DNA of 64,000 nt, taken from contig PMYN01000015.1 in assembly GCA_003171215.1 (NCBI GenBank), forward strand, positions 1-64,000. Direction: 5' to 3'. The DNA is from Gemmatimonadota bacterium. Its GTDB lineage: Bacteria > Gemmatimonadota > Gemmatimonadetes > Gemmatimonadales > Gemmatimonadaceae. This document shows, one piece after another, positions 13,447-50,949 of this stretch. Numbering within the stretch: position 1 is the first letter of the stretch; every line of letters begins with the position of its first letter. The translations under genes were made by a program, and so were the position numbers. The notes under the pieces were generated by a model. The model worked only from the letters and a program-made list of their open reading frames with translations, was not told the origin of the DNA and did no database searches.

Positions 13447-15722
13447 CGCGTAGCCAGCAGCGCTTCACCCGGCAGACCCTCCGAACGGCCGTCCTCGCGT
13501 CCGCGGTGGCTGCCGCCGTCTTCCTCGTTCACGCGACATCGTCGAGTGCACGCCAGGGCAAGCCGGTCGTGCGGGGCAATGTCGCCGGAGAGTGGCGCGT
13601 CTGGGGCGCCGACGCGTGGAGCTCCCGCTACTCGCCGCTCGACCAGATCAACGCCTCGAACTTCAATTCGCTGCAGGTGGCGTGGACGTGGGACGCCGCG
13701 AAGGACGGAAGCGACGAGTACTATCGCACCACTCCGCTGTATGCGAACGGTCGCATCCTCACCGTGGCCACGACGCACCGGTACGCGTACGCGATCGATC
13801 CCGCAAATGGGACGACGCTCTGGACGTACAAGCTGAACGAGGGCATTCGATACCAGAAGGCGCCGCGCCAGTTCGCCGGCCGCGGTCTCGCCTACTGGAC
13901 CGACGGCAACGCCGAGCGCGCGATCGTCATCACGCCGGGATATCATCTCGTCTCGCTCGATGCCAAGACGGGCATTGCCGACCCGAAGTTCGGAAAGGAC
14001 GGCGTCGTGGATCTCGACGAAGGGCTCGGCTACCCGATCGTGCCTTTCGCCGTGGACGACTCGAACTCGCTCGAGATCAGCGAGGCGTATCCGGCGCGCA
14101 AGGCCAAGCCCGGCGAGACCTGGGATCCCGTCAAGAAAATCGGCGCCGACGGCACGGTGGGAATCGATCCGGCCGCAGGCCAGCTCGCCAACAGCTCGCC
14201 CGCGATCATCGTCGGCAACACGATCGTCCTCGGCAACTCGGCCATTCACGGTTACTACCTGCTGCACAACCACAACATTTCCGGAACCATTCGCGGATTC
14301 GATGTTCATACCGGAAAGCAGCTGTGGAAATTCAACCTCCTTCCGCTGCCGGGCGAGTACGGAGCCGAGACGTGGAAGAACGGTTCCAACCTCGGCGATC
14401 CGGGCACCGGAAAGGTTGATCCGTGGGCGACCTACAGCGCCGATCCGGTGCTTGGCCTCGTGTACATTCCCGTCGGCGAAGGCATCGTCGACGAGTACGG
14501 CGGCCACCGGCCCGGCAACAACCTGTTCGCTACCAGCATCGTCGCGATCGACGTGAAGACCGGCAAGCGGAAATGGCACTTTCAAATGGTGCACCACGAC
14601 ATCTGGGACTACGACATCCCGATGGCACCGAACCTTCTCGACGTCACGATCGACGGACGCCCACGCAAGATCATCGCCGCGACGACGAAGATTGGGTGGG
14701 CGTATGTGCTCGATCGCGTGACGGGTGAGCCCATCTGGCCGATCGTCGAGACGCCGGTCGGGCAGAGTGAAGTTCCCGGCGAAGTCTTGTCGCCCACGCA
14801 GCCGATTCCGACCAGGCCTGCGCCGTACGCGCAGATGGGACTGCTGGAGTCCGACCTTATAGACTACACGCCGGCCATCAAGGATTCGGCGCTGAAGCTC
14901 GCGAAGAAGTGCCGGATGGGACCCTACTTCATTCCTGGTTCACCGGCCGACGGCAAGGGCAAGAACGGCCCGACACAGTACACTTGTTCGTGGTACGCGC
15001 CGGGGGCGGCCGGCGGCGTGAATATCGACGGCGGCACGGCGGCCGACCCCGAGACGGGAATGATCTACGTGGGCGCGCAGACCGGCATGACCACGATCAG
15101 CGTTGCGCACGACCCGTGTTCGGAAATCCCGTACACCTCGCCGCACAATAGCTGCGGCAAGCTCGGTGCGCTGCCTCCGCCCCCGAGCTATCAACCGCCG
15201 CAGGAAGGCCCCAGCAGTACCGGTGCCTACAGCCGTCCGCAGGTACCGAACACGATCGGTGGTGTTTCGATTTTCAAGGTGAAGGAATACGGCGGGATCA
15301 CCGCGTACGATCTCAACACGGGTGACAAGAAGTGGTGGCAGCCTAACGGAGGCATCTGGCGCGATCCGGCCCCGACGAACGACCCGCTGTTCGCCGGAGT
15401 GACGCTGCCGAAGATTCCGAACCAGACGAGCCAGCCGCAGTTGATGGTGACCAGAACGCTGCTCATCAACGGCACCGGGCGCGGCGGCGGCGGCGGTGGC
15501 CGCGGCGCACGCGCTGGCGGAGGCGGCCGTGCCGCTGGGCCGCCACCCCAGCTCTACGCGTTCGACAAGGCGACCGGGAAGCCGGTCGGCGCGGTGACGA
15601 TACCGAGCCCGACGAGCGCCGTGCCGATGACCTTCCTGCACCAGGGCAAGCAGTACATCGTGTTCGCCACCGGCGCGGGGGATCAGACGAAGCTGGTTGC
15701 GCTGACGCTGCCGAACAAATAG
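13443..15722 (+). CDS. PQQ-dependent dehydrogenase
   Basis: Encodes 759 residues with an N-terminal Tat- or Sec-like signal ending near SSSARQ. It carries the eight-bladed quinoprotein propeller, visible as W-motif blades such as GEWRVWGADAWSSRYSPL, TLWTYKLNEG, GKQLWKFNLLPL, KTGKRKWHFQMVHHDIWDYD and DKKWWQPNGGIW. HHDIWDYD and GWAYVLDRVTGEP are typical of the glucose/alcohol quinoprotein group. No cytochrome domain is fused; the upstream gene supplies one. A Gly/Arg-rich insert lies at about residues 679-700, before the last blade. It likely oxidises a sugar or alcohol in the periplasm; the substrate cannot be read from sequence. Confidence 0.9.
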   Translation: MTRSQQRFTRQTLRTAVLASAVAAAVFLVHATSSSARQGKPVVRGNVAGEWRVWGADAWSSRYSPLDQINASNFNSLQVAWTWDAAKDGSDEYYRTTPLYANGRILTVATTHRYAYAIDPANGTTLWTYKLNEGIRYQKAPRQFAGRGLAYWTDGNAERAIVITPGYHLVSLDAKTGIADPKFGKDGVVDLDEGLGYPIVPFAVDDSNSLEISEAYPARKAKPGETWDPVKKIGADGTVGIDPAAGQLANSSPAIIVGNTIVLGNSAIHGYYLLHNHNISGTIRGFDVHTGKQLWKFNLLPLPGEYGAETWKNGSNLGDPGTGKVDPWATYSADPVLGLVYIPVGEGIVDEYGGHRPGNNLFATSIVAIDVKTGKRKWHFQMVHHDIWDYDIPMAPNLLDVTIDGRPRKIIAATTKIGWAYVLDRVTGEPIWPIVETPVGQSEVPGEVLSPTQPIPTRPAPYAQMGLLESDLIDYTPAIKDSALKLAKKCRMGPYFIPGSPADGKGKNGPTQYTCSWYAPGAAGGVNIDGGTAADPETGMIYVGAQTGMTTISVAHDPCSEIPYTSPHNSCGKLGALPPPPSYQPPQEGPSSTGAYSRPQVPNTIGGVSIFKVKEYGGITAYDLNTGDKKWWQPNGGIWRDPAPTNDPLFAGVTLPKIPNQTSQPQLMVTRTLLINGTGRGGGGGGRGARAGGGGRAAGPPPQLYAFDKATGKPVGAVTIPSPTSAVPMTFLHQGKQYIVFATGAGDQTKLVALTLPNK

Positions 15723-15727
15723 ACAGC

Positions 15728-15827
15728 AGCCGGAAGCACGGAAGCCGGAAGCCGGATGAGCATCTCCGACTTCCGGCTTCTGCCTTTCGCCCCGCGCTTC
15801 CGGCTTCCGCGCTTCCGGCTTCCGGCT
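15728..15827. repeat. Inverted heptamer repeat, CTTCCGG/CCGGAAG body (family C)
   Basis: Left arm (15728-15756) is made of CCGGAAG-type units and the right arm (15771-15827) of CTTCCGG-type units, with 7- and 8-base spacing. The outer parts pair over roughly 25 of 27 bases. It fills the gap between two convergent genes and the right arm reaches the TAG stop of the aminotransferase gene. The same 7-mer recurs inside the lipoprotein gene at 30043-30096. Confidence 0.75.
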
Positions 15828-17049: not shown

Positions 17050-17099
17050 CTGTCGTCCGTCGTCCCAGCCGCCGTCTGCCGTCCGCCGTCTGCCGTCTG

Positions 17100-21957: not shown

Positions 21958-23766
21958 ATGCGCAACATCCGCGTCTCCCTGCTCTCTCTCGCTCTCCTCG
22001 CGCCGGTCTGCGCGCGTGCGCAGGCCGACAAACTCAACAAGTACGGCAACCCGGCCAGGATCACCCCCGCCCCGACCACCGCGGCGATCACCGCGCACGA
22101 CCTTCAGATTCGTCTCTACCAGTTTTCCGACGACTCCATGCAGGGCCGCCAGGTCGGCCGCGTCGGGAATATGAAGGGCACCGCCTACATCGCGTCCGAA
22201 GTGAAGCGGCTCGGACTACAGCCAGCGGGTGACAACGGCACCTACTTCCAGGTGCTGCCTTACCACCTGCACTCGTTCACGAATCATTCGCGCCTCACGG
22301 TGAACGGCAATCCGCTCACGTGGCAGCAAGACTGGGTCGCCGCGGCCGGCGCGCGCGCACCGCGCCCGATCAGCACGGCGGACGTGATCTTCGGCGGCAC
22401 GACCGGCGACACGACGACGCAGATTTCTGCGGCCCAGGCGAACGGAAAGTTCGTCGTACTCCTCCCCGCGCCGCCTCAGGCAGCCCCGGCGGGCGGACGC
22501 GGTGGTGGCGGACGCGGTGGCTTCGGCGGCCCGAGCAGGTTCGCCGGCGCCGCGGCGGTCGCGACCGTCGACCTCGACGCGCTCACGCCGGCGCAGCGCG
22601 CCGCGATCAACGTCCCGACGGTCGCAACGCAGAGCGTCGCGGGCGGACGCGGCGGCGGCCGCGCGGGCGGCCGCGGTGGCGCGGCGCCCGCTCCGGTCGA
22701 TTCGCTCACGATCCTGCACCAGCAGATCGACGCGCTCGCGCCGGCGGCGACCATTCGCCTCACGCGCGCGGCGGCTGCCCAGCTGTTCGGCCGTTCGTCC
22801 ATCGACGGCCTCACGCCCGGTATCACGGGCGGCTCGGTCAACGCCTCGCTCGACTTCATCGAGATCCCGTCGGAATGGGCGCGCAACGTCGTCGCCGTAA
22901 TTCCCGGCAGCGATCCCGTGCTCAAGCACGAGTACGTCGCGATCGGCGCGCACAACGATCACATCGGCATGAGCACGCCGGTCGATCACGATTCGCTCAA
23001 GGCGTTCAACGACGCGCGCAACAAGAGGCTGATCGCGAACAACATGCTCCAACTCACACCGGAACAGCTCGCGACGATCCACGTGAACATGGACAGCATT
23101 CGAAAGCTCTTCCCGAAGGCGCGCCTCGACTCCATCAGCAACGGCGCCGACGATGACGGCTCGGGTTCGATGGGCGTGCTCGAGATCGCCGAGGCGATCC
23201 AGGCGATGAAGGTGAAGCCGAAACGCTCGATCCTGTTCGTGTGGCACACGGGTGAAGAGGCCGGCCTCGTCGGCTCCAACTTCTACACGCACAATCCGAC
23301 GCTGCCGATCGACTCGATCGTCACGCAGATCAACATCGACATGATCGGCCGCGGCCGCGCGGAAGACCTGCCGGGCGGCGGGCCCGACTACCTCGGCGTC
23401 GTCGGATCGTACTTCGACTCGAAGGACCTCGGCGAGACCGTCGCGAGTGTCAACAAGAAGCGCGCGAAGCCGCTCGACCTCGACTACCGCTACGACACGA
23501 CGCTGACGTGGTCCGGCTACAACAACATCTACGGCCGCAGCGACCACTACAACTACGCGCTGCAGGGCGTGCCGATCGCGTTCTTCTTCACCGGCCTGCA
23601 CGGCGACTACCACCAGCGCACCGACGAGGCGGAATACATCGACTATCCGCACTACGCGAAGATCACGAACTACCTCCGCGACGTCACCGTGCAGGTCGCC
23701 GACGGACCGCGTCCGCGGATGAACGGCACGCATCCGGCGAAGCCGCCGAAGCCGGTCGTCCCATGA
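21958..23766 (+). CDS. M28 family zinc aminopeptidase, exported (copy 1)
   Basis: Encodes 602 residues with a Sec signal (MRNIRVSLLSLALLAPVCARA) and TGGAG before the ATG. The two-zinc ligand set of M28 is complete: H332 (AHNDH), D398 (GADDDGSG), E433/E434 (TGEEAGLVGS), D461 (NIDMIGR) and H552 (HGDYHQ). Between the N-terminal segment and the catalytic core, where M28 relatives carry a protease-associated-like domain, are two Gly/Arg-rich inserts at about 178-193 and 230-245. It probably releases N-terminal residues from peptides in the periplasm or outside. Its stop overlaps the DUF4412 gene start. Confidence 0.9.
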   Translation: MRNIRVSLLSLALLAPVCARAQADKLNKYGNPARITPAPTTAAITAHDLQIRLYQFSDDSMQGRQVGRVGNMKGTAYIASEVKRLGLQPAGDNGTYFQVLPYHLHSFTNHSRLTVNGNPLTWQQDWVAAAGARAPRPISTADVIFGGTTGDTTTQISAAQANGKFVVLLPAPPQAAPAGGRGGGGRGGFGGPSRFAGAAAVATVDLDALTPAQRAAINVPTVATQSVAGGRGGGRAGGRGGAAPAPVDSLTILHQQIDALAPAATIRLTRAAAAQLFGRSSIDGLTPGITGGSVNASLDFIEIPSEWARNVVAVIPGSDPVLKHEYVAIGAHNDHIGMSTPVDHDSLKAFNDARNKRLIANNMLQLTPEQLATIHVNMDSIRKLFPKARLDSISNGADDDGSGSMGVLEIAEAIQAMKVKPKRSILFVWHTGEEAGLVGSNFYTHNPTLPIDSIVTQINIDMIGRGRAEDLPGGGPDYLGVVGSYFDSKDLGETVASVNKKRAKPLDLDYRYDTTLTWSGYNNIYGRSDHYNYALQGVPIAFFFTGLHGDYHQRTDEAEYIDYPHYAKITNYLRDVTVQVADGPRPRMNGTHPAKPPKPVVP

Positions 23767-24416
23767 CTTGGGGAATAGCCATGGCCCGCAGGCCGGCAGT
23801 GCTGGCCCTGATGTGCATTTCGTCGCCGCTTGCCGCGCAGTCGTTCGAGGGCACGGTGACGATGAACATGGTGAGCGACGACGGCAGCGCGCACGCCATC
23901 AGCTTCATGATCAAGGGCGGCAAGATGCGGTTCGACGTGGGCGGAGGGCAAATGAGCGTGGTCCTGGACCCGGTCGCGCAGCGCATGATGGTGATCATGA
24001 ACGCGCAGAAGATGTACATGGAGCGCGATTTCGGGAGCGCCGTCGCGGCGGTGCAACAGCAGGTCGGCGAGAAGCACCCGTCCATCGTGCGAACCGGCAA
24101 GAGGGAGACCATCGCCGGCTACAAGTGCGAGCACGTCACCGTCACCGATGACGACGGCGCATCGGTGGACAGTTGCATTTCGTCGGAGCTCGGCGGATTT
24201 CGCATGCCGGCAGCCAGCAACCCGATGTCGCCGCAGAAGGAAGCCGGCTGGCTGGCGCAGCTCGGATCGACGAGTTTCCCGCTGAAGGTGACGAAAGGCG
24301 GGAAGACGATCATGGAGGTGACGGCGATCGAGAAGAGATCACTTGATGCCGCGCTGTTCACGGCACCGGAGGGATTCCAGAGTTTTGCGATGCCGAAACG
24401 GCCGCGGCAGAACTGA
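23763..24416 (+). CDS. DUF4412-like exported protein
   Basis: Encodes 217 residues if started at the ATG at 23763 (ATGA overlap with the peptidase stop), or 211 from the ATG at 23781, which has GGGGA upstream. Both give a Sec signal ending near SSPLAAQ. The body matches the DUF4412 pattern: FEGTVTMNM, IKGGKMRFDVGG, VLDPVAQRMMVIM, then a late segment KVTKGGKTIMEVTAIEKRSLDAALFTAPEGF. Members are secreted, of unknown function, possibly lipid- or ligand-binding beta folds. Two Cys (about 130-150) could form a disulphide. It is coupled to an M28 peptidase. Confidence 0.75.
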   Translation: MTWGIAMARRPAVLALMCISSPLAAQSFEGTVTMNMVSDDGSAHAISFMIKGGKMRFDVGGGQMSVVLDPVAQRMMVIMNAQKMYMERDFGSAVAAVQQQVGEKHPSIVRTGKRETIAGYKCEHVTVTDDDGASVDSCISSELGGFRMPAASNPMSPQKEAGWLAQLGSTSFPLKVTKGGKTIMEVTAIEKRSLDAALFTAPEGFQSFAMPKRPRQN

Positions 24417-24452
24417 CGGCCAAGAGCGAGTAAGCAGAACTAACGGCCAACA

Positions 24453-24538
24453 GCGAGTAATCGGTCGTCGGTCATTGGTTCTTGGTTCTTGGCGCGGGCC
24501 AAAGACCAACGACCAATGGCCAACGACCGATTACTCGC
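24453..24538. repeat. Inverted heptamer repeat, GGTCATT body (family A, copy 2)
   Basis: Arms 24453-24492 and 24499-24538 pair over about 34 of 40 bases with a 6-base loop, the tightest hairpin of the family. The outer 16 bases (GCGAGTAATCGGTCGT) are perfect. A second GCGAGTAA lies just left at about 24425. The right arm ends one base before the TAA of the second sortilin-like gene, in a convergent gap. Confidence 0.85.
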
Positions 24539-27841: not shown

Positions 27842-27897
27842 CGAAGACCTCACGTAAGCGTTGGATCGCATCAAGTGAATTGATGGCTGGGCAACGT

Positions 27898-28010
27898 GAA
27901 AAGCGAGTAGAAAGTCATTGGTCATTGGCGATCGCGACAAGCCGCGTGTCGGCGCTCGTGATCCGGCCGAGAACCAACGACCAACGACCAATGACCTTCT
28001 ACTCGCTTTT
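27898..28010. repeat. Inverted heptamer repeat with long loop (family A, copy 3)
   Basis: AAAAGCGAGTAGAA at the left (27898 onward) and its reverse near 28010 bracket GTCATTG-type units; arms match over about 28 of 30 bases. The loop is 43 bases with unrelated sequence, unlike the short loops of other copies. It sits in a divergent gap between a sortilin-like gene and an amidase. Confidence 0.8.
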
Positions 28011-28095
28011 GCCGTTCCGCACTTGATGCCGACATGCATCTGGTGGTCAATTAGTCCCCTTCTCCCGACTGTCCGCCCGCCTCAGAGGAAAATCC

Positions 28096-29952
28096 ATGCC
28101 GACCCCCGAAGAACTTCTCGACCAGACAGAGACAGACCTGGTCAACTCCGACTACGATGAGGAGTTGGCGGGCATGGATCGCCGGCACTTCATGTTCCTC
28201 TCGCTCGTCGCCGCCGCCGCGACGGCGTTCGGCGCAGATCGCGCACGCGCGCAGGGCACGAGCGCCGGTGCGGCGGGCGCTGCCGGCGGTGGCCGCGGGC
28301 AGCAGCCGCAAGCTCCGCCGGTTCCTCTCGGGAACGGCGAAGCGCCTGCCCTGCAGTTCCAGCCCTACCCCGGCGGCACCGGCGCGCTCATGGAAAAGCT
28401 CGCGAAGGAGCGCGGCCGCGCGGCGTTCGATCGCGCGGTCTTCACGGTCGAGAAGTGGACCGGATCCGTCCCCACGAATCCGGACGACATCGCGTTCCTC
28501 CCCGCGCACCGCCTCTCCGCGCTCATCAAGGCGAAGAAGATCACGTCGCTGCAGCTCACCGAGATCTATCTCACTCGCCTCAAGCGGCTGAACCCCACGT
28601 TGCTCTGCGCGGTGACGATCATGGAAGATTCGGCGCGCGCCGAGGCCATCACGGCCGACGCCGAGATCAAGGCCGGCAAGTATCGCGGGCCGCTGCACGG
28701 ACTGCCGTACGGAGTGAAAGACCTGTTCTCGACGAAGGGCGTTCCCACGACTTGGGGCGCGAAGGATTTCGAGCATCGCATCATCGATGAAGACGCCGAG
28801 GTGGTGGTGCGTCTTCGTGAGGCCGGCGCGGTGCTCATCGCGAAGCTCGCCACCGGACTCTTCGCGCAGAACGACCAGTGGTTCCGCGGCCGCACGAACA
28901 ATCCGTGGAACCTGGCACTCGGCTCCAGCGGCTCCTCGGCGGGCCCGTCGTCGGCGACCGCCGCCGGTTGCGTCGCGTTCGGCATCGGAACGGAAACGTC
29001 GGGATCCATCGTTTCGCCGGCCACGCGCTGCGGGGTCAGCGCGCTGCGTCCGACCTTTGGCCGGGTCAGCCGCTCGGGCGGCATGGTGCTCGGGTGGTCG
29101 ATGGATCGCGTCGGGCCCATCACGCGGACCGTTGAGGACGCGGCGATGGTCTTCAACGCGATCCACGGTGTGGACGAGAAGGATCCGTCCACCGTCATGA
29201 CGCCGTTTCAATTCGATCGCAAGATCAAGCTCGCCGCGCTGCGGATCGGCGTCGATCCGAATGCGCCGAAGGAATTCGTCGACAAGCTCAAGGAACTCGG
29301 CATGCAGCCGAAGGAAGTCGGCCCGCGCCCGACGGTCGGTGGAGCGGGCGGCGGCGGACTGAACGTCGAAGACGCGGCGGCATTCGACGACTACGTCCAG
29401 ATCAAGGCGAAAGAGATCGGGCTCGACCTCAACTCGCTCCCCGAGCCGGCCGCCGGTCGCGGCGGCGGCGCCGGCGCTGGCGGTGGCCGGGGAGCCGGCG
29501 CGGCGGGCAACGCTCCGGCGGCGCCCGGTGCGCCGGCCGTGCCGGCGAACCCGATGGCGCCCGCAGACTGGAATCCGCGTTTCGTGAACGGCCGCACGGT
29601 TCGCGCGTTCGAGTTCGTGCAGGGCCAGCGTCGACGCTACATGCTCATCAGCAAGTGGGCGGAGTACATGAAGGATCTCGACATGTTCATCGGCGCTCCG
29701 ACCGCCGACATCGGCGCGAACTCGCAGACCGGCCATCCGTGCGTCGTTGTGCAGTACAAGTTCGACGTCCCCGTGCAGGGCGGTGGTGGCGGCGGACGCG
29801 GCGGGGCTGCTCCGCAGCCTCCGCTCGATCTCAAGCCGCAGCCGATCTGCGCGACGATCATCGGCAACCTGTACAACGACGACAAGATCCTGTCGGTCGC
29901 ACATCAGTATCAGGTGAACACGGATATTCACCTCAAGCATCCGACGCTCTGA
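28096..29952 (+). CDS. Amidase-signature hydrolase, Tat-exported
   Basis: Encodes 618 residues. AGAGG precedes the ATG. A Tat-like signal starts late (MDRRHFMFLSLVAAAA, about residue 27). The amidase-signature triad is present: K208 (YGVKDLF), the cis-Ser in GSSGSSAG (about 277-281) and nucleophile S304 (GTETSGSI). The protein is longer than typical amidases (about 470-500) because of Gly/Arg/Ala-rich inserts at about 454-490 and 562-573. The enzyme probably hydrolyses amides or tRNA-unrelated small substrates outside the cytoplasm; GatA function is unlikely given the export signal. The stop overlaps the next start by one base (TGATG). Confidence 0.9.
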   Translation: MPTPEELLDQTETDLVNSDYDEELAGMDRRHFMFLSLVAAAATAFGADRARAQGTSAGAAGAAGGGRGQQPQAPPVPLGNGEAPALQFQPYPGGTGALMEKLAKERGRAAFDRAVFTVEKWTGSVPTNPDDIAFLPAHRLSALIKAKKITSLQLTEIYLTRLKRLNPTLLCAVTIMEDSARAEAITADAEIKAGKYRGPLHGLPYGVKDLFSTKGVPTTWGAKDFEHRIIDEDAEVVVRLREAGAVLIAKLATGLFAQNDQWFRGRTNNPWNLALGSSGSSAGPSSATAAGCVAFGIGTETSGSIVSPATRCGVSALRPTFGRVSRSGGMVLGWSMDRVGPITRTVEDAAMVFNAIHGVDEKDPSTVMTPFQFDRKIKLAALRIGVDPNAPKEFVDKLKELGMQPKEVGPRPTVGGAGGGGLNVEDAAAFDDYVQIKAKEIGLDLNSLPEPAAGRGGGAGAGGGRGAGAAGNAPAAPGAPAVPANPMAPADWNPRFVNGRTVRAFEFVQGQRRRYMLISKWAEYMKDLDMFIGAPTADIGANSQTGHPCVVVQYKFDVPVQGGGGGGRGGAAPQPPLDLKPQPICATIIGNLYNDDKILSVAHQYQVNTDIHLKHPTL

Positions 29953-31013
29953 TGTTCGCACGGCCGGCGCGGCGGTGGGCGCGAGAGGGAGTGGCAGTTC
30001 TCCTTGCGCTCGCCGTCGGCGCGTGCACACACACCGGAGCGTCTCCGGCTTCCGCGCTTCCGGCTTCCGGCTTTCCTCCGGCTTCCGGCTCCCCGGCCTA
30101 CCTTTTCTCCTACTTCCGGGGCAACGGCGACGACGGCGTCCATCTCGCGTGGAGCAGCGACGGCATCACTTGGTCCGCGTTGAACGGAGGCAAGCCGGTG
30201 ATCACCCCCGCGATCACGGGCGATGGGATCGGCTGGCAGGATTGGAACACGAAGGCCGCGCTCATGCGCGATCCGAGCATCATCTACGGTCCCGACAAGC
30301 TCTTTCACATGGTCTGGACCGTCGCGTGGACCGATCATGGAATCGGCGTGGCGCACTCGCGCGACCTCATCCATTGGTCGGAACAGGCACGCGTTCCGGT
30401 GATGGACCACGAGCCGAACGCACTGAACGCCTGGGCGCCCGATCTCTTTTACGATGACGCGACGAAGCTGTACGTCATCGTCTGGGCCACGTCGATTCCC
30501 GGGCGCTTCCCCGCGACCGACAGCGTCGCGCAGAGAACTTCACGGGGACGCGCCGATCACCGGCTCTACTACGTGACCACCAGGGATTTCAGGTCGTATT
30601 CGCACGCCGCCCTGCTGTACGACGGCGGCTTCTGCGCGATCGACGGAACGATCACCAAGCGCGGCGACACCTACTACCTCGTCATGAAGGACGAGACGTT
30701 CTATCCGGCGCAGACGCGCAATCTCCGGATCGCGTCCAGCAAGCATGCGACCGGCCCGTACGGCCCCGCGTCGCCGTCGTTCACGTCGAAGGACACCGAG
30801 GGTCCTTCGGTGCTGCAGACGCCCGAGTGGTCGTACGTCTACTACGACGAATACACGCGCGGACGCTACGGCGCCGTGCGCACGAAGGACTTCCAGCACT
30901 TCGAGCCGTTCACCGACTCGCTGCACGCGCCGCGGATGCGTCACGGCTCGGCGTTTCTCGCGCCAATGTGGGTGCTCAAGGGGCTGCAGGCGCTCGTCTC
31001 CGCGTCGAACTGA
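29952..31013 (+). CDS. GH43-like five-bladed propeller lipoprotein
   Basis: Encodes 353 residues. The signal ends in a lipobox (LAVGAC, C25), so it is a lipoprotein. A Pro/Ala/Ser/Gly linker (residues about 28-50) follows, encoded by a CTTCCGG heptamer repeat. The globular part shows the GH43/GH117-type five-bladed layout: YLFSYFRGNGDDGVHLAWS, RDPSIIYGPDKLFHMVWT, HEPNALNAWAPDLFYDD, DGTITKRGDTYYLVMKDE and TEGPSVLQTPEWSYVYYDE. The acidic catalytic residues of GH43 probably lie in those blocks. It likely binds or cleaves arabinose- or xylose-containing glycans; a GH127 enzyme lies 15 kb away. Coupled to the amidase gene. Confidence 0.8.
   Translation: MFARPARRWAREGVAVLLALAVGACTHTGASPASALPASGFPPASGSPAYLFSYFRGNGDDGVHLAWSSDGITWSALNGGKPVITPAITGDGIGWQDWNTKAALMRDPSIIYGPDKLFHMVWTVAWTDHGIGVAHSRDLIHWSEQARVPVMDHEPNALNAWAPDLFYDDATKLYVIVWATSIPGRFPATDSVAQRTSRGRADHRLYYVTTRDFRSYSHAALLYDGGFCAIDGTITKRGDTYYLVMKDETFYPAQTRNLRIASSKHATGPYGPASPSFTSKDTEGPSVLQTPEWSYVYYDEYTRGRYGAVRTKDFQHFEPFTDSLHAPRMRHGSAFLAPMWVLKGLQALVSASN
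30043..30096. repeat. CTTCCGG heptamer repeat inside the lipoprotein coding region
   Basis: About six to seven CTTCCGG/CTCCGGC-type units encode the Ala/Ser/Pro/Gly tether just after the lipid-modified Cys. The unit is identical to that of the intergenic element at 15728-15827. The 7-base period is not a codon multiple, so the repeat drives the peptide rather than the reverse. Confidence 0.7.
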
Positions 31014-36741: not shown

Positions 36742-36840
36742 ACGGCAGACGGCAGACAGCGGCAGTCAAACGGGGCGGGTACCAGATTCGGTGCCCGCCC
36801 CGTTTTGTTCCTGCCGTCTGCCGTCCGTCGTCCGCCGTCT
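36742..36840. repeat. Inverted heptamer repeat, CCGTCTG body, flanking a terminator (family B)
   Basis: Left units (ACGGCAG, GACGGCAGAC) at 36742-36765 and right units (CTGCCGT, CTGCCGTC, CGTCGTC) at 36811-36840 form an outer stem around the hairpin at 36768-36806. It fills the whole gap between two convergent genes. Confidence 0.75.
36768..36806. terminator. Strong bidirectional intrinsic terminator
   Basis: AAACGGGGCGGGTACC (36768-36783) pairs with GGTGCCCGCCCCGTTT (36790-36805), 16 pairs including one G-U wobble, with loop AGATTC. A T-run follows on the plus strand, and the A-run before the left arm provides a U-run for the minus strand. It sits between the stops of the M28 gene (+) and the S9 gene (-), so it can end both transcripts. 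Confidence 0.85.
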
Positions 36841-36841
36841 C

Positions 36842-44998: not shown

Positions 44999-45008
44999 CG
45001 AACGAACG

Positions 45009-45119
45009 GCGGGTAATCGGTCGTTGGTCATTGGTCCTTGGTAATTGGCGGGCGCATCATCCTTCGCGCAGTTTGCTGACTACCAATGACCAATGACCAA
45101 CGACCAATGACCGATTACG
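45009..45119. repeat. Inverted heptamer repeat overlapping a gene start (family A, copy 5)
   Basis: Left arm 45009-45047 (GGGTAATCGGTCGTTGGTCA onward) and right arm 45081-45119 pair with few mismatches around a 33-base loop. The right arm contains both ATG codons that could start the HEAT-cyclophilin gene. It lies between two plus-strand genes. Confidence 0.82.
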
Positions 45120-46603
45120 TCGTAGCCATCCGTTCGCACCGATCTGTCACACTCGCCGCGTTGCTGCTGGTCACGGCGTTGTCCGCCGGCGCACAAGCGC
45201 GCAAGCGCCCCCTGTCCCCCGCCGACGTCGACGACATCGCCCGCCTCGTGATGCTGGAGGACCACCGCGATTTCGACACCACCGATCTCTCACGCCTTCT
45301 CGCCTCTCAGCACCCCGAGGTCCGCCGCCGCGCAGCCCTCGCCATCGGCCGCATCGCGGACAAGCGCGGCTACGCGCTCCTGCGTGCGAAACCGCTCGAC
45401 GCCGACACCGCCGTTGCCGCGACGGAAGTGTTCGGCGCCGGACAGCTGAAGGATTCGACCACCGTCGCGTGGTTCGACTCCCTGCTCGCGAACAGGAAGC
45501 TCGCGCCAACGGTCCTCACGGAAGCCGCCACCGCGCTCGGCAAGATCAAGACCGCCCGCGCCCGCGACGCGCTCGCGCGCTTTCTCTCCAGCGCCTCCGA
45601 AAGCCCGCGCCTGAACCAGGCGATCGGCGAAGCGCTCCTCTCGATCGGCCGCTGCACCACCCGCGGCGATCTCAATCCAATTCTGCGCTTCGGCAAGGCA
45701 AACAGCGACGAAATCCGCTGGCGCGCTGCGTGGGCGCTCTTTCGCCCGCGCGATCCGGCCGCCGTATCGGTCCTCATGGTGATGGCGGCCGGCGACCATT
45801 CGCCGGACGTTCGTCTGTGGGCCATACGCGCGCTCACGAAGCCGCAAGCGGATTCCGCAGGCAAGGCGGCGGACGCGGAAAGGATTCTCTTCGCGGCGCT
45901 TCGTGATTCCGATCGCCGTGTGCGCACGGAAGCGATCCGCGCGATCGGCACGTATTCCGATTCCGCAGCCGTCACCGCGATGAATGCCGCGAAAAGCTCG
46001 CCGGACTGGTGGATCTCTTCGAGCGCGGAGGAGGGCCTCGCCCGCCTGAACCCGCCGCCGGCGCCCGCAGGTGGCGGCCGTCAGGGTGGAGGCCGCAGCG
46101 CGCGTCCGGCGCCAACCCCTATCACGCGCCCCCTCCCGGACTACAAGGCCATCGTCGAGCGCTGGGTCGTTCCCGATTACAACGGCGCGCCCCGCCCCAC
46201 CGCCCGCTGGGAAACCGTGCGCGGGTCCATCGAGATCGAGCTGTATCCCGGCGATGCGCCGCTGGCCGTCGACGATTTCGTGAAGACCATGGAATCGGGC
46301 ACCATCGTCGGCACCGCGTTCACGCGCGTCGTCCCCGATTTCGTCGCGCAGGAGGAAACGATTCCCGGCGGCCATCGTCTTCGCGACGAAGTGAGCCGTC
46401 ACGGTCTCACGCGCGCCAACCTCGCGTGGGCGTCAGCGGGCCTCGACACGGGAACCCCCGGCTACACGCTCGCCAACGCCGTGCAGCCACACAACGAGGG
46501 CGACTTCACGGCGCTCGGCCGCGTGACCAAAGGAATGGACGTCGTCGATCAGATCCAGCTGAACGACAAGATCACCGCCGCGCGAATACTCATAGTCCGT
46601 TAG
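45107..46603 (+). CDS. HEAT-repeat protein fused to cyclophilin-type peptidyl-prolyl isomerase
   Basis: Encodes 498 residues from the ATG at 45107, or 505 from an in-frame ATG at 45086; both lie within an intergenic heptamer repeat and neither has a Shine-Dalgarno. A Sec signal follows (SVTLAALLLVTALSAGAQA). Residues about 30-310 form HEAT-type helical repeats (HPEVRRRAALAIGRIADKRG, SDRRVRTEAIRAIGTYSD). After a Gly/Arg linker (322-332) comes a cyclophilin domain: GSIEIELYPGDAPLAVDDFV, GTAFTRVVPDFVAQ and NEGDFTALGRVTKGMDVVD. The usual FHR arginine appears as FTRV. It probably helps fold or scaffold periplasmic proteins. Its 3' end overlaps the GH127 gene by 14 bases. Confidence 0.85.
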   Translation: MTDYVVAIRSHRSVTLAALLLVTALSAGAQARKRPLSPADVDDIARLVMLEDHRDFDTTDLSRLLASQHPEVRRRAALAIGRIADKRGYALLRAKPLDADTAVAATEVFGAGQLKDSTTVAWFDSLLANRKLAPTVLTEAATALGKIKTARARDALARFLSSASESPRLNQAIGEALLSIGRCTTRGDLNPILRFGKANSDEIRWRAAWALFRPRDPAAVSVLMVMAAGDHSPDVRLWAIRALTKPQADSAGKAADAERILFAALRDSDRRVRTEAIRAIGTYSDSAAVTAMNAAKSSPDWWISSSAEEGLARLNPPPAPAGGGRQGGGRSARPAPTPITRPLPDYKAIVERWVVPDYNGAPRPTARWETVRGSIEIELYPGDAPLAVDDFVKTMESGTIVGTAFTRVVPDFVAQEETIPGGHRLRDEVSRHGLTRANLAWASAGLDTGTPGYTLANAVQPHNEGDFTALGRVTKGMDVVDQIQLNDKITAARILIVR

Positions 46604-50839: not shown

Positions 50840-50842
50840 ACC

Positions 50843-50942
50843 GCGAGTAATAGGTTCTTGGTCATTGGTCGTTGGTTCTTGGCACATGCCAATGACCAAC
50901 GACCAATGACCAACGACCAATGACCAACGACCGATTACTCGC
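50843..50942. repeat. Inverted heptamer repeat, GGTCATT body (family A, copy 6)
   Basis: Left arm 50843-50884 begins GCGAGTAATAGG; right arm 50888-50942 has seven alternating CCAATGA/CCAACGA units and ends CCGATTACTCGC. The right arm is longer by about two units, so the hairpin can slip. It fills the convergent gap between panE and the third sortilin-like gene. Confidence 0.85.
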
Positions 50943-50949
50943 CCTTCAA

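Follow-up and report, generated by a model that had tools for sequence, protein, structure and literature searches.

Rickettsia palindromic elements (RPE) are palindromic repeats that are found in frame in unrelated protein genes as well as between genes (PMC10969869), and the heptanucleotide elements of Geobacter metallireducens, which consist of four units of GGACCGG, are represented by 49 intergenic and intragenic copies (PMC2700814). The GGGAATC / GGGGA(C/T)T heptamers of Xanthomonas and Nostoc are dispersed and over-represented outside genes, with some intragenic copies (PMC4692102), and the tandem repeats of Borgs are fast-evolving sequences, located between or within open reading frames (ORFs), that give rise to disordered protein segments (PMC9879509). 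For the intervening sequences (IVS) of 23S rRNA, a role of the S23p ORF in mobility was once suggested (PMC4990558). These and all later statements on the cited systems refer to the available portions of the respective papers. In the literature that names Gemmatimonadetes or Gemmatimonas, searched with most subscription journals outside the coverage, no account of the heptamer repeats analyzed here was found.

The DNA under study, hereinafter the window, is a stretch of 64,000 nucleotides (G000:C18:1-64000) from the draft genome G000, which comprises 162 contigs with a total of 4.14 Mb; the closest relatives compared are G010, G002 and G014, and the named close relatives are MAGs. A preliminary description of the window noted that the same CTTCCGG repeat is intergenic in one place and encodes the linker of a lipoprotein in another, and proposed a capture of the repeat by the gene. 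The linker turns out to be a small view of a larger pattern: it is one of 38 clusters of this repeat, many of which are located in folded enzymes rather than in tethers. Our reading of this pattern, to which we assign a probability of roughly 0.7, is that the linker is a captured arm of a dispersed hairpin family in which the array persists at its site while the unit word is replaced in place by copying.

A heptamer array in the linker of a GH43-like putative lipoprotein

The host gene (29952..31013, forward strand; 353 amino acids) starts with an ATG at 29952 that overlaps the stop codon of the upstream amidase gene. The GH43-like assignment in the preliminary description stands: the match to Pfam PF04616 (2.5e-9, 37.4 bits) is above the curated cut-off of 32.2 bits. 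The sequence LAVGAC, which by eye we take to be the lipobox, places the putative lipobox Cys25 codon at 30024..30026 (forward strand). This cysteine is present in the Gemmatimonadaceae orthologs inspected by eye, and the protein model (AlphaFold) consists mainly of beta strands. The orthologs in G010, G002 and G014 are at 96, 88 and 88% identity, respectively, the DNA of the GH43 body is 93, 84 and 82% identical to that of G000 in the same order, and the named matches of the lipoprotein assign the genome to Gemmatimonadaceae, the nearest record coming from a MAG of this family (96% identity). The linker of 24 residues (T26-A49, THTGASPASALPASGFPPASGSPA; codons 30027..30098, forward strand) is plausibly a disordered tether because AlphaFold assigns pLDDT values under 50 to residues 1-45. 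The additional suggestion that such a tether tolerates frame-shifting repeats proved unnecessary, since a tandem 7-mer encodes one and the same cycle of seven residues whichever frame is used, and CTTCCGG is stop-free on both strands.

The captured array (30043..30096, forward strand; 30044-30090 according to TRF) is located within the linker codons, just after the putative lipobox cysteine as originally described, and encodes most of SPASALPASGFPPASGSP. The linker contains the pyrimidine-rich arm only, in contrast to the intergenic copy between convergent genes at 15728..15827, which is a two-arm hairpin with arrays at 15728-15756 and 15765-15827 (TRF) and a predicted RNA folding energy of -62 kcal/mol; the orthologs of this gap in G002 and G014 are other sequence, without the CTTCCGG family. 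Direct comparison of the two sites reveals 29 identical bases (30044..30072, forward strand, and 15799-15827), the longest exact match of the region 30030-30110 to the remaining window. For 300 random 81-bp windows, the median longest match was 13, and the top four, some of which may lie on other heptamer arrays, were 24, 25, 25 and 29. The identical stretch contains an irregular 8-base unit, CTTCCGCG, the sharing of which points to copying rather than chance slippage. Of the 22-mer that encloses this unit, G000 has 10 exact copies, 6 of them genic and 4 intergenic, G010 has 2, G014 has 1, and G002 and six other genomes of the genus have none.

The codons of the linker follow the repeat and not the genome usage. 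When residues G29-Y50 (22 residues) were back-translated with the codon usage of the genome in 200,000 trials, the 14-mer CTTCCGGCTTCCGG appeared in 56 trials, the 22-mer in none, and an equally high lag-7 score in 32. At the places dictated by the repeat, rare codons are used, namely, GCT, CTT and TCT, which account for 4, 6 and 2% of the Ala, Leu and Ser codons, respectively.

Orthologs of the lipoprotein differ in the linker much as anticipated in the preliminary description, which predicted variation in length and unrelated linkers in relatives that lack the repeat. The G010 linker has the same length and repeat as that of G000, and in G014, 18 bp of the repeat are missing, a difference that keeps the reading frame, with the linker being 7 residues shorter overall (17 amino acids). 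In seven further relatives, which do not belong to the group with the repeat (L006, L041-L046), the linkers are unrelated and 13-18 amino acids long, with no heptamer array seen by eye, and none of the orthologs read encodes the same peptide by non-repetitive codons, the result that had been named as contrary to capture. Given that the repeat-bearing linker of G014 is no longer than the repeat-free ones, the array partly overwrote the linker codons rather than simply extending the linker. Over 30 bp, the linker repeats of G000 and G014 are identical, compared to 82% identity for the gene, a hint that the repeat was copied recently and not simply inherited; the GH43 tree groups G002 with G014 (support 98/95).

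Unforeseen in the preliminary description, a second heptamer family occupies the linker of G002 (ortholog 88% identical), which reads ASGRTRSSAFDPRSPENPA, with the DNA in the phase TCTTCGG CCTTCGA TCCTCGG. A pattern drawn from this phase and loosened at some positions (TCYTCGRx3) has 41 matches in G002, one of which is the linker itself, 7 in G014, 5 in G010 and 2 in G000, compared to 0-1 in the reversed controls. Together, the phase of the linker and the abundance of these matches in G002 indicate that the tether of this genome holds a different heptamer family.

CTTCCGG and other heptamers across the genomes

Genome-wide, the pattern CTTCCGGx2 has 100 matches in G000 (none for the reversed control), 44 in G002, 41 in G010 and 10 in G014; a further 37 relatives have 0-2 apiece. 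The G000 matches form 38 clusters, 36 of them outside the window. Against genes called with a purpose-written codon-usage caller, 16 clusters overlap ORFs and 22 lie outside; one of the latter also encodes the tail of a small (IVP) ORF missed by the caller, so that the number of genic clusters is 17 if it is counted. By Pfam, the host genes encode DnaE, a second DnaE-type polymerase (DnaE2-like in our reading), RarA/MgsA, MetH, a MutS2-type protein, gamma-glutamyltranspeptidase (GGT), an HlyD-type adaptor, two E2 acyltransferases, a molybdopterin enzyme, an amidohydrolase, a transhydrogenase 4TM protein, an AcrB-type pump, a POR fusion, and an aldehyde dehydrogenase in which the array is at a contig edge. 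The genic copies are directly observed to be in frame, and their translations are pieces of the LPASGFR or PEAGSRK cycle, as expected from a 7-mer, for which the seven-residue cycle is the same in each frame. In a dihydrolipoamide acyltransferase (L085:2257-3597), several CTTCCGG arrays in both orientations are located in inter-domain linkers. Another long ORF (L081:697-4302) combines a Fer4_20/pyridine-redox part with a POR part and carries a CTTCCGG hairpin near the join; this stretch contains NN, and the fusion may be an assembly effect.

Both arms are present in 13 of the 38 clusters (exact 14-mer), with the purine-rich arm first in every case; the loops differ among loci, and no core common to the CTTCCGG hairpins was seen by eye. 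Among the 22 intergenic clusters, for two of which only one neighbour was in view, 17 have a stop codon no more than 20 bp away, and gaps between divergent genes contain none of the 22.

The CTTCCGG family belongs to a broader background of period-7 arrays, which we surveyed in 398 kb of other G000 stretches. These were taken from contigs with CTTCCGG matches, mostly away from the matches themselves, so that CTTCCGG is under-sampled. The survey yielded 15 period-7 arrays, only one of them genic though the sequence is 89% coding, compared to none with periods 5, 8, 13, 16 and 17, two with period 10, one with period 11 and three with period 14; the coding periods 6, 9, 12, 18 and 21 gave 4-12 genic arrays. 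These counts identify heptamers as a real, mostly intergenic class in G000, among which CTTCCGG is unusual in so often being genic. Samples of 80 kb from each of five other genomes contained a single period-7 array in G003 and none in G014, G006, G015 and G004, suggesting that heavy heptamer loads are not general in the genus. In the window and the 398 kb together, a 3'-end preference of all arrays is not clear: 13 arrays are in tandem gaps (including the linker, since the caller trims signal peptides), 7 in divergent and 6 in convergent gaps, 5 are genic and 1 is at a contig end, with gap totals of 119 tandem, 45 divergent and 24 convergent.

Several related heptamer arrays of other families are located in gaps of the window. 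An ACGGCAG-family array (17050..17099) occupies a gap in which G002 and G014 have TCTTCGG-type units. TTGGTNN-family hairpins, identified by repeat search and gap comparison, are found between convergent genes at 24417..24538 and 50840..50949 and in the gap at 44999..45160; in a further gap with a hairpin of this family (27842..28095), G010 keeps the arm family with a different core. At 36742..36841, a GC stem with a T run, terminator-like by eye, is flanked by the heptamer arms GACGGCA / TGCCGTC, and the orthologous gap of G002 (L181) retains the hairpin with the core and both arms changed. A 27-bp tandem duplication (24407-24460) that adjoins a heptamer hairpin is absent from the G010 ortholog. 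Separately, Gly/Arg-rich (GGRGG-like) coding inserts are present in several predicted enzymes encoded in the window (15481-15540, 22492-22520, 29451-29506).

Different words at orthologous sites

Different heptamer families are directly observed at orthologous sites, in many cases with the hairpin form retained. At one site in the DnaE gene, the hairpin arms are CCGGAAG..CTTCCGG in G000, GATGGAA..TTCCATC in G010 and GACCGAA..TTCGGTC in G002; the hairpin is absent in the other 12 genomes aligned, G014 included, two of which, G004 and G005, contain long inserts with a different sequence. In the coding orientation, each unit of the second arm in G000 has its counterpart in G010 and the final codon of the arm is shared, with the GG/AT difference in three full units. 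The same three families recur in MetH of the same three genomes, and five others, including G014, have no array. In RarA, the array boundaries coincide in G000, G014 and G002 (the G010 copy is truncated where its contig ends), and the G002 array includes GCCCGAA units, which differ by a single base from either of the two families. The GGT array is present in G000 alone among the genomes aligned (none in G014 and G002), with no G010 match found. The array sites in DnaE, RarA and MetH are length-variable loops. The DnaE+MetH tree leaves the branching of G002 and G014 open, so that no fixed order emerges from the trees.

When 10 CTTCCGG sites of G000 were aligned by their flanks to G010, 4 had the same word, 5 were swapped and 1 was half-swapped; in the alignment of 10 sites to G002, 8 were of the GACCGAA type, 2 lacked heptamers and none was the same. 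Most partner loci in these two genomes were chosen for holding heptamers, so that the swap counts are biased and absences are undercounted. For the loci chosen by gene homology, the outcomes were 5 swapped and 2 without an array in G002, 1 same and 2 swapped in G010, and 2 same and 4 without an array in G014. In the reverse direction, a CTTCCGG site of G010 corresponds to a G000 site without an array (L267/L118), which, along with the missing DnaE and MetH arrays of G014, indicates that gain or loss also occurs. The words at the swapped sites are of the CTTCCAT type in G010 and of the TCTTCGG type in G002, in line with the family counts, where CTTCSATx3 has 112 matches in G010, 27 in G000 and none in six others; the family patterns differ in length, and with 44 CTTCCGGx2 matches retained in G002, the old word is not gone.

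Three pairs of loci illustrate the swaps at the level of single units. In L079/L285, both arms differ unit for unit and in register, with four units each in the first arm, the third of which shares the same C in both species. In L088/L260, the flanks are near-identical and the two species agree in the first arm; in the second arm, a run of five CTTCCGG units in G000 corresponds, in register, to five CTTCCAT units in G010 (in G000, the arms are separated by an NN gap). In G000:C34/G002:C209, the neighbour genes (two ABC-ATPase-like genes, by eye), an inner terminator-like hairpin and the small IVP ORF all correspond, and both outer arms differ (CCGGAAG vs GACCGAA/GTCCGAA).

Origin of the arrays and comparison with described systems

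In the scheme that we propose, the linker repeat would derive from a dispersed family of heptamer hairpins with the arms CCGGAAG...CTTCCGG, the intergenic copies of which are mostly found just after stop codons and other copies inside ORFs. Genic arrays could survive because a stop-free 7-mer gives the same cycle (LPASGFR or PEAGSRK) in any frame, with selection presumably holding the total array length at a multiple of three. The array would stay at its site, and its unit word, often in both arms, would be swapped for that of the family abundant in the given genome, most likely through copying between arrays (by template switching or short-tract conversion) combined with slippage, a process that the hairpin and the shared CTTC core would help. 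Under this scheme, one ancestral array would be rewritten, not replaced by new insertions.

The capture component of this scheme is well supported by the 29-bp identity, the 10-copy 22-mer, the codon test with its rare codons, the presence of 16 of the 38 clusters in genes, and the ortholog comparison with its unrelated, repeat-free linkers. It is very improbable that a Pro/Ala/Ser/Gly tether, unrelated to the intergenic repeat, looks repetitive by chance under coding selection only: such tethers are common behind lipoboxes, and some relatives have Pro/Ala-rich linkers, but the Leu and Phe residues of the tether fall where the LPASGFR cycle predicts, and the G002 linker contains the second heptamer family. 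Coding selection alone is rejected by the codon test and the shared 29-mer. Mobilization of REP-like elements by a RAYT (Y1) transposase, which the dispersal of hairpins near gene ends brings to mind, is hardly credible either, and for the known transposase family we rejected this candidate because Y1_Tnp (PF01797) was found in 0 of 8 genomes (the control was positive in 5 of 14 named genomes). For the swaps, in-place rewriting is our preferred reading, and the main rival, which we consider possible but rather unlikely, is repeated insertion, whereby loops, tethers and 3' ends, being tolerant, would act as hot spots at which every species acquired a heptamer element of its own at a different time. 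Such insertion is compatible with the length-variable loops at the DnaE, RarA and MetH sites, with the lack of arrays in G014 at DnaE, MetH and GGT and in G002 at GGT, and with the CTTCCGG array that G010 has and G000 lacks (L267/L118), and the near-identical family copies at many loci indicate that the family does spread. It is harder to reconcile with the equal unit numbers and near-identical flanks of L079/L285, where both arms differ, and L088/L260, where one does (with NN in G000), or with the coincidence of the RarA boundaries in three species and the existence of intermediate units; the arms that differ on both sides of the orthologous gene in C34/C209 would require a double hit in each lineage. 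The arm differences in these three pairs of loci favor rewriting. Weighing against our scheme are the lack of DnaE and MetH arrays in G014, the trees with their unsettled branching, the bias in the swap counts, the CTTCCGG matches retained in G002, the draft or MAG status of the genomes, and the hint of recent copying in the linker repeats of G000 and G014.

A further explanation, which we regard as unlikely, has the heptamer elements as non-autonomous relatives of a mobile unit, with the IVP (S23p-like) protein promoting dispersal or rewriting. The small ORF of G000:C34 is flanked by CTTCCGG arms, one of which encodes the C-terminus of its protein; this protein matches TIGR02436 and PF05635 (23S rRNA-intervening sequence protein, 3.1e-35). 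The four CTTCCGG-richest genomes have 7-11 PF05635 matches (10 in G000, 7 in G010, 10 in G002 and 11 in G014) vs 0-4 in 15 others. Among the 43 of 58 PF05635 matches that were examined for flanks (13 genomes; L202-L251), an exact inverted repeat of at least 13 bp brackets the gene in 24 (6 of 10 in G000 alone), compared to 3 of 322 G000 control genes, and heptamer arrays are found in at least one flank in 17 of 43 vs 43 of 322 controls; the arm words vary among loci, and some are heptamer arms. The Coxiella IVS, as far as described in the available part of the report, likewise combines a terminal stem, an S23p ORF and tandem heptamers (PMC4990558). However, G014, with its 11 matches, has no period-7 array in the 80 kb sampled and few family matches, GATGGAA arms are found at none of the 6 G010 IVP genes examined (of 7), both flanks contain heptamer arrays in only 8 of 43 cases (4 of 322 controls), and the DGR Avd model (NF033474), run on the C34 protein alone, gave 27.3 bits vs a cut-off of 80. 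A general rule that IVP number tracks heptamer load was rejected on the G014 counts. The role of IVP is only a lead, and we consider quite improbable the more sweeping possibility of a search-and-replace of seven-base words throughout this Gemmatimonadaceae clade, by which hairpin arms located between and inside genes, that of the replicative polymerase included, would be changed in place to a word current in the given genome, with IVP/S23p proteins (relatives of Avd) as candidate agents and the 23S rRNA IVS as a cousin. With most subscription journals outside the coverage, nothing beyond IS607 was found in the literature pairing IVP with inverted repeats, and in the broader IVP literature, the Coxiella IVS study was the relevant one among the matches listed. 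At L081:8105-8655 (G000:C34) and L202 (G002:C209), a four-helix-bundle IVP gene is nested between heptamer arms.

Apart from this lead on the S23p/IVP family, the sister species, with their different words at one site, provide a natural experiment by which concerted change of dispersed repeats becomes measurable. The genic copies also document the entry of repeat DNA, in frame, into conserved enzymes.

Among the described systems, the 23S rRNA IVS have an inverted-repeat stem around a four-helix-bundle ORF and tandem heptamers that vary in number (PMC4990558), and may in this respect resemble those IVP loci that are bracketed by inverted repeats. The IVS sit in 23S rRNA, whereas the CTTCCGG clusters, like the 13 IVP loci viewed here, are located between or in protein genes, and, unlike IVS, ORF-less hairpins also occur here inside ORFs, and the lipoprotein linker has no S23p/IVP ORF. 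The ORF repeats of Borgs have units divisible by three (PMC9879509), in contrast to the unit of 7 and the many inverted pairs of arrays in G000. The Xanthomonas and Nostoc heptamers are G-rich runs with G-quadruplex potential, for which paired hairpin arms are not described in the available part of the report (PMC4692102). The Geobacter elements share with the present family the 7-nt units and the location both between and within genes, sometimes with several copies per gene; they differ in sequence and are interpreted as predicted regulatory RNA, with no cross-species swap of families seen in the accessible part of that study (PMC2700814). Like RPE, the CTTCCGG arrays occur in frame in unrelated, Pfam-identified protein genes. 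RPE are palindromes of ~150 bp with a conserved family sequence and peptide, as far as the available account goes (PMC10969869), whereas here the arms are tandem 7-mers without a shared core seen, both arms are present in about a third of the clusters, no whole palindrome of the RPE kind was found, single arms such as that in the linker also occur, and the word at one site differs by species. Within the portions of these reports that were available, RPE are thus the closest precedent for in-frame palindromes and the Geobacter elements for intragenic 7-mers.
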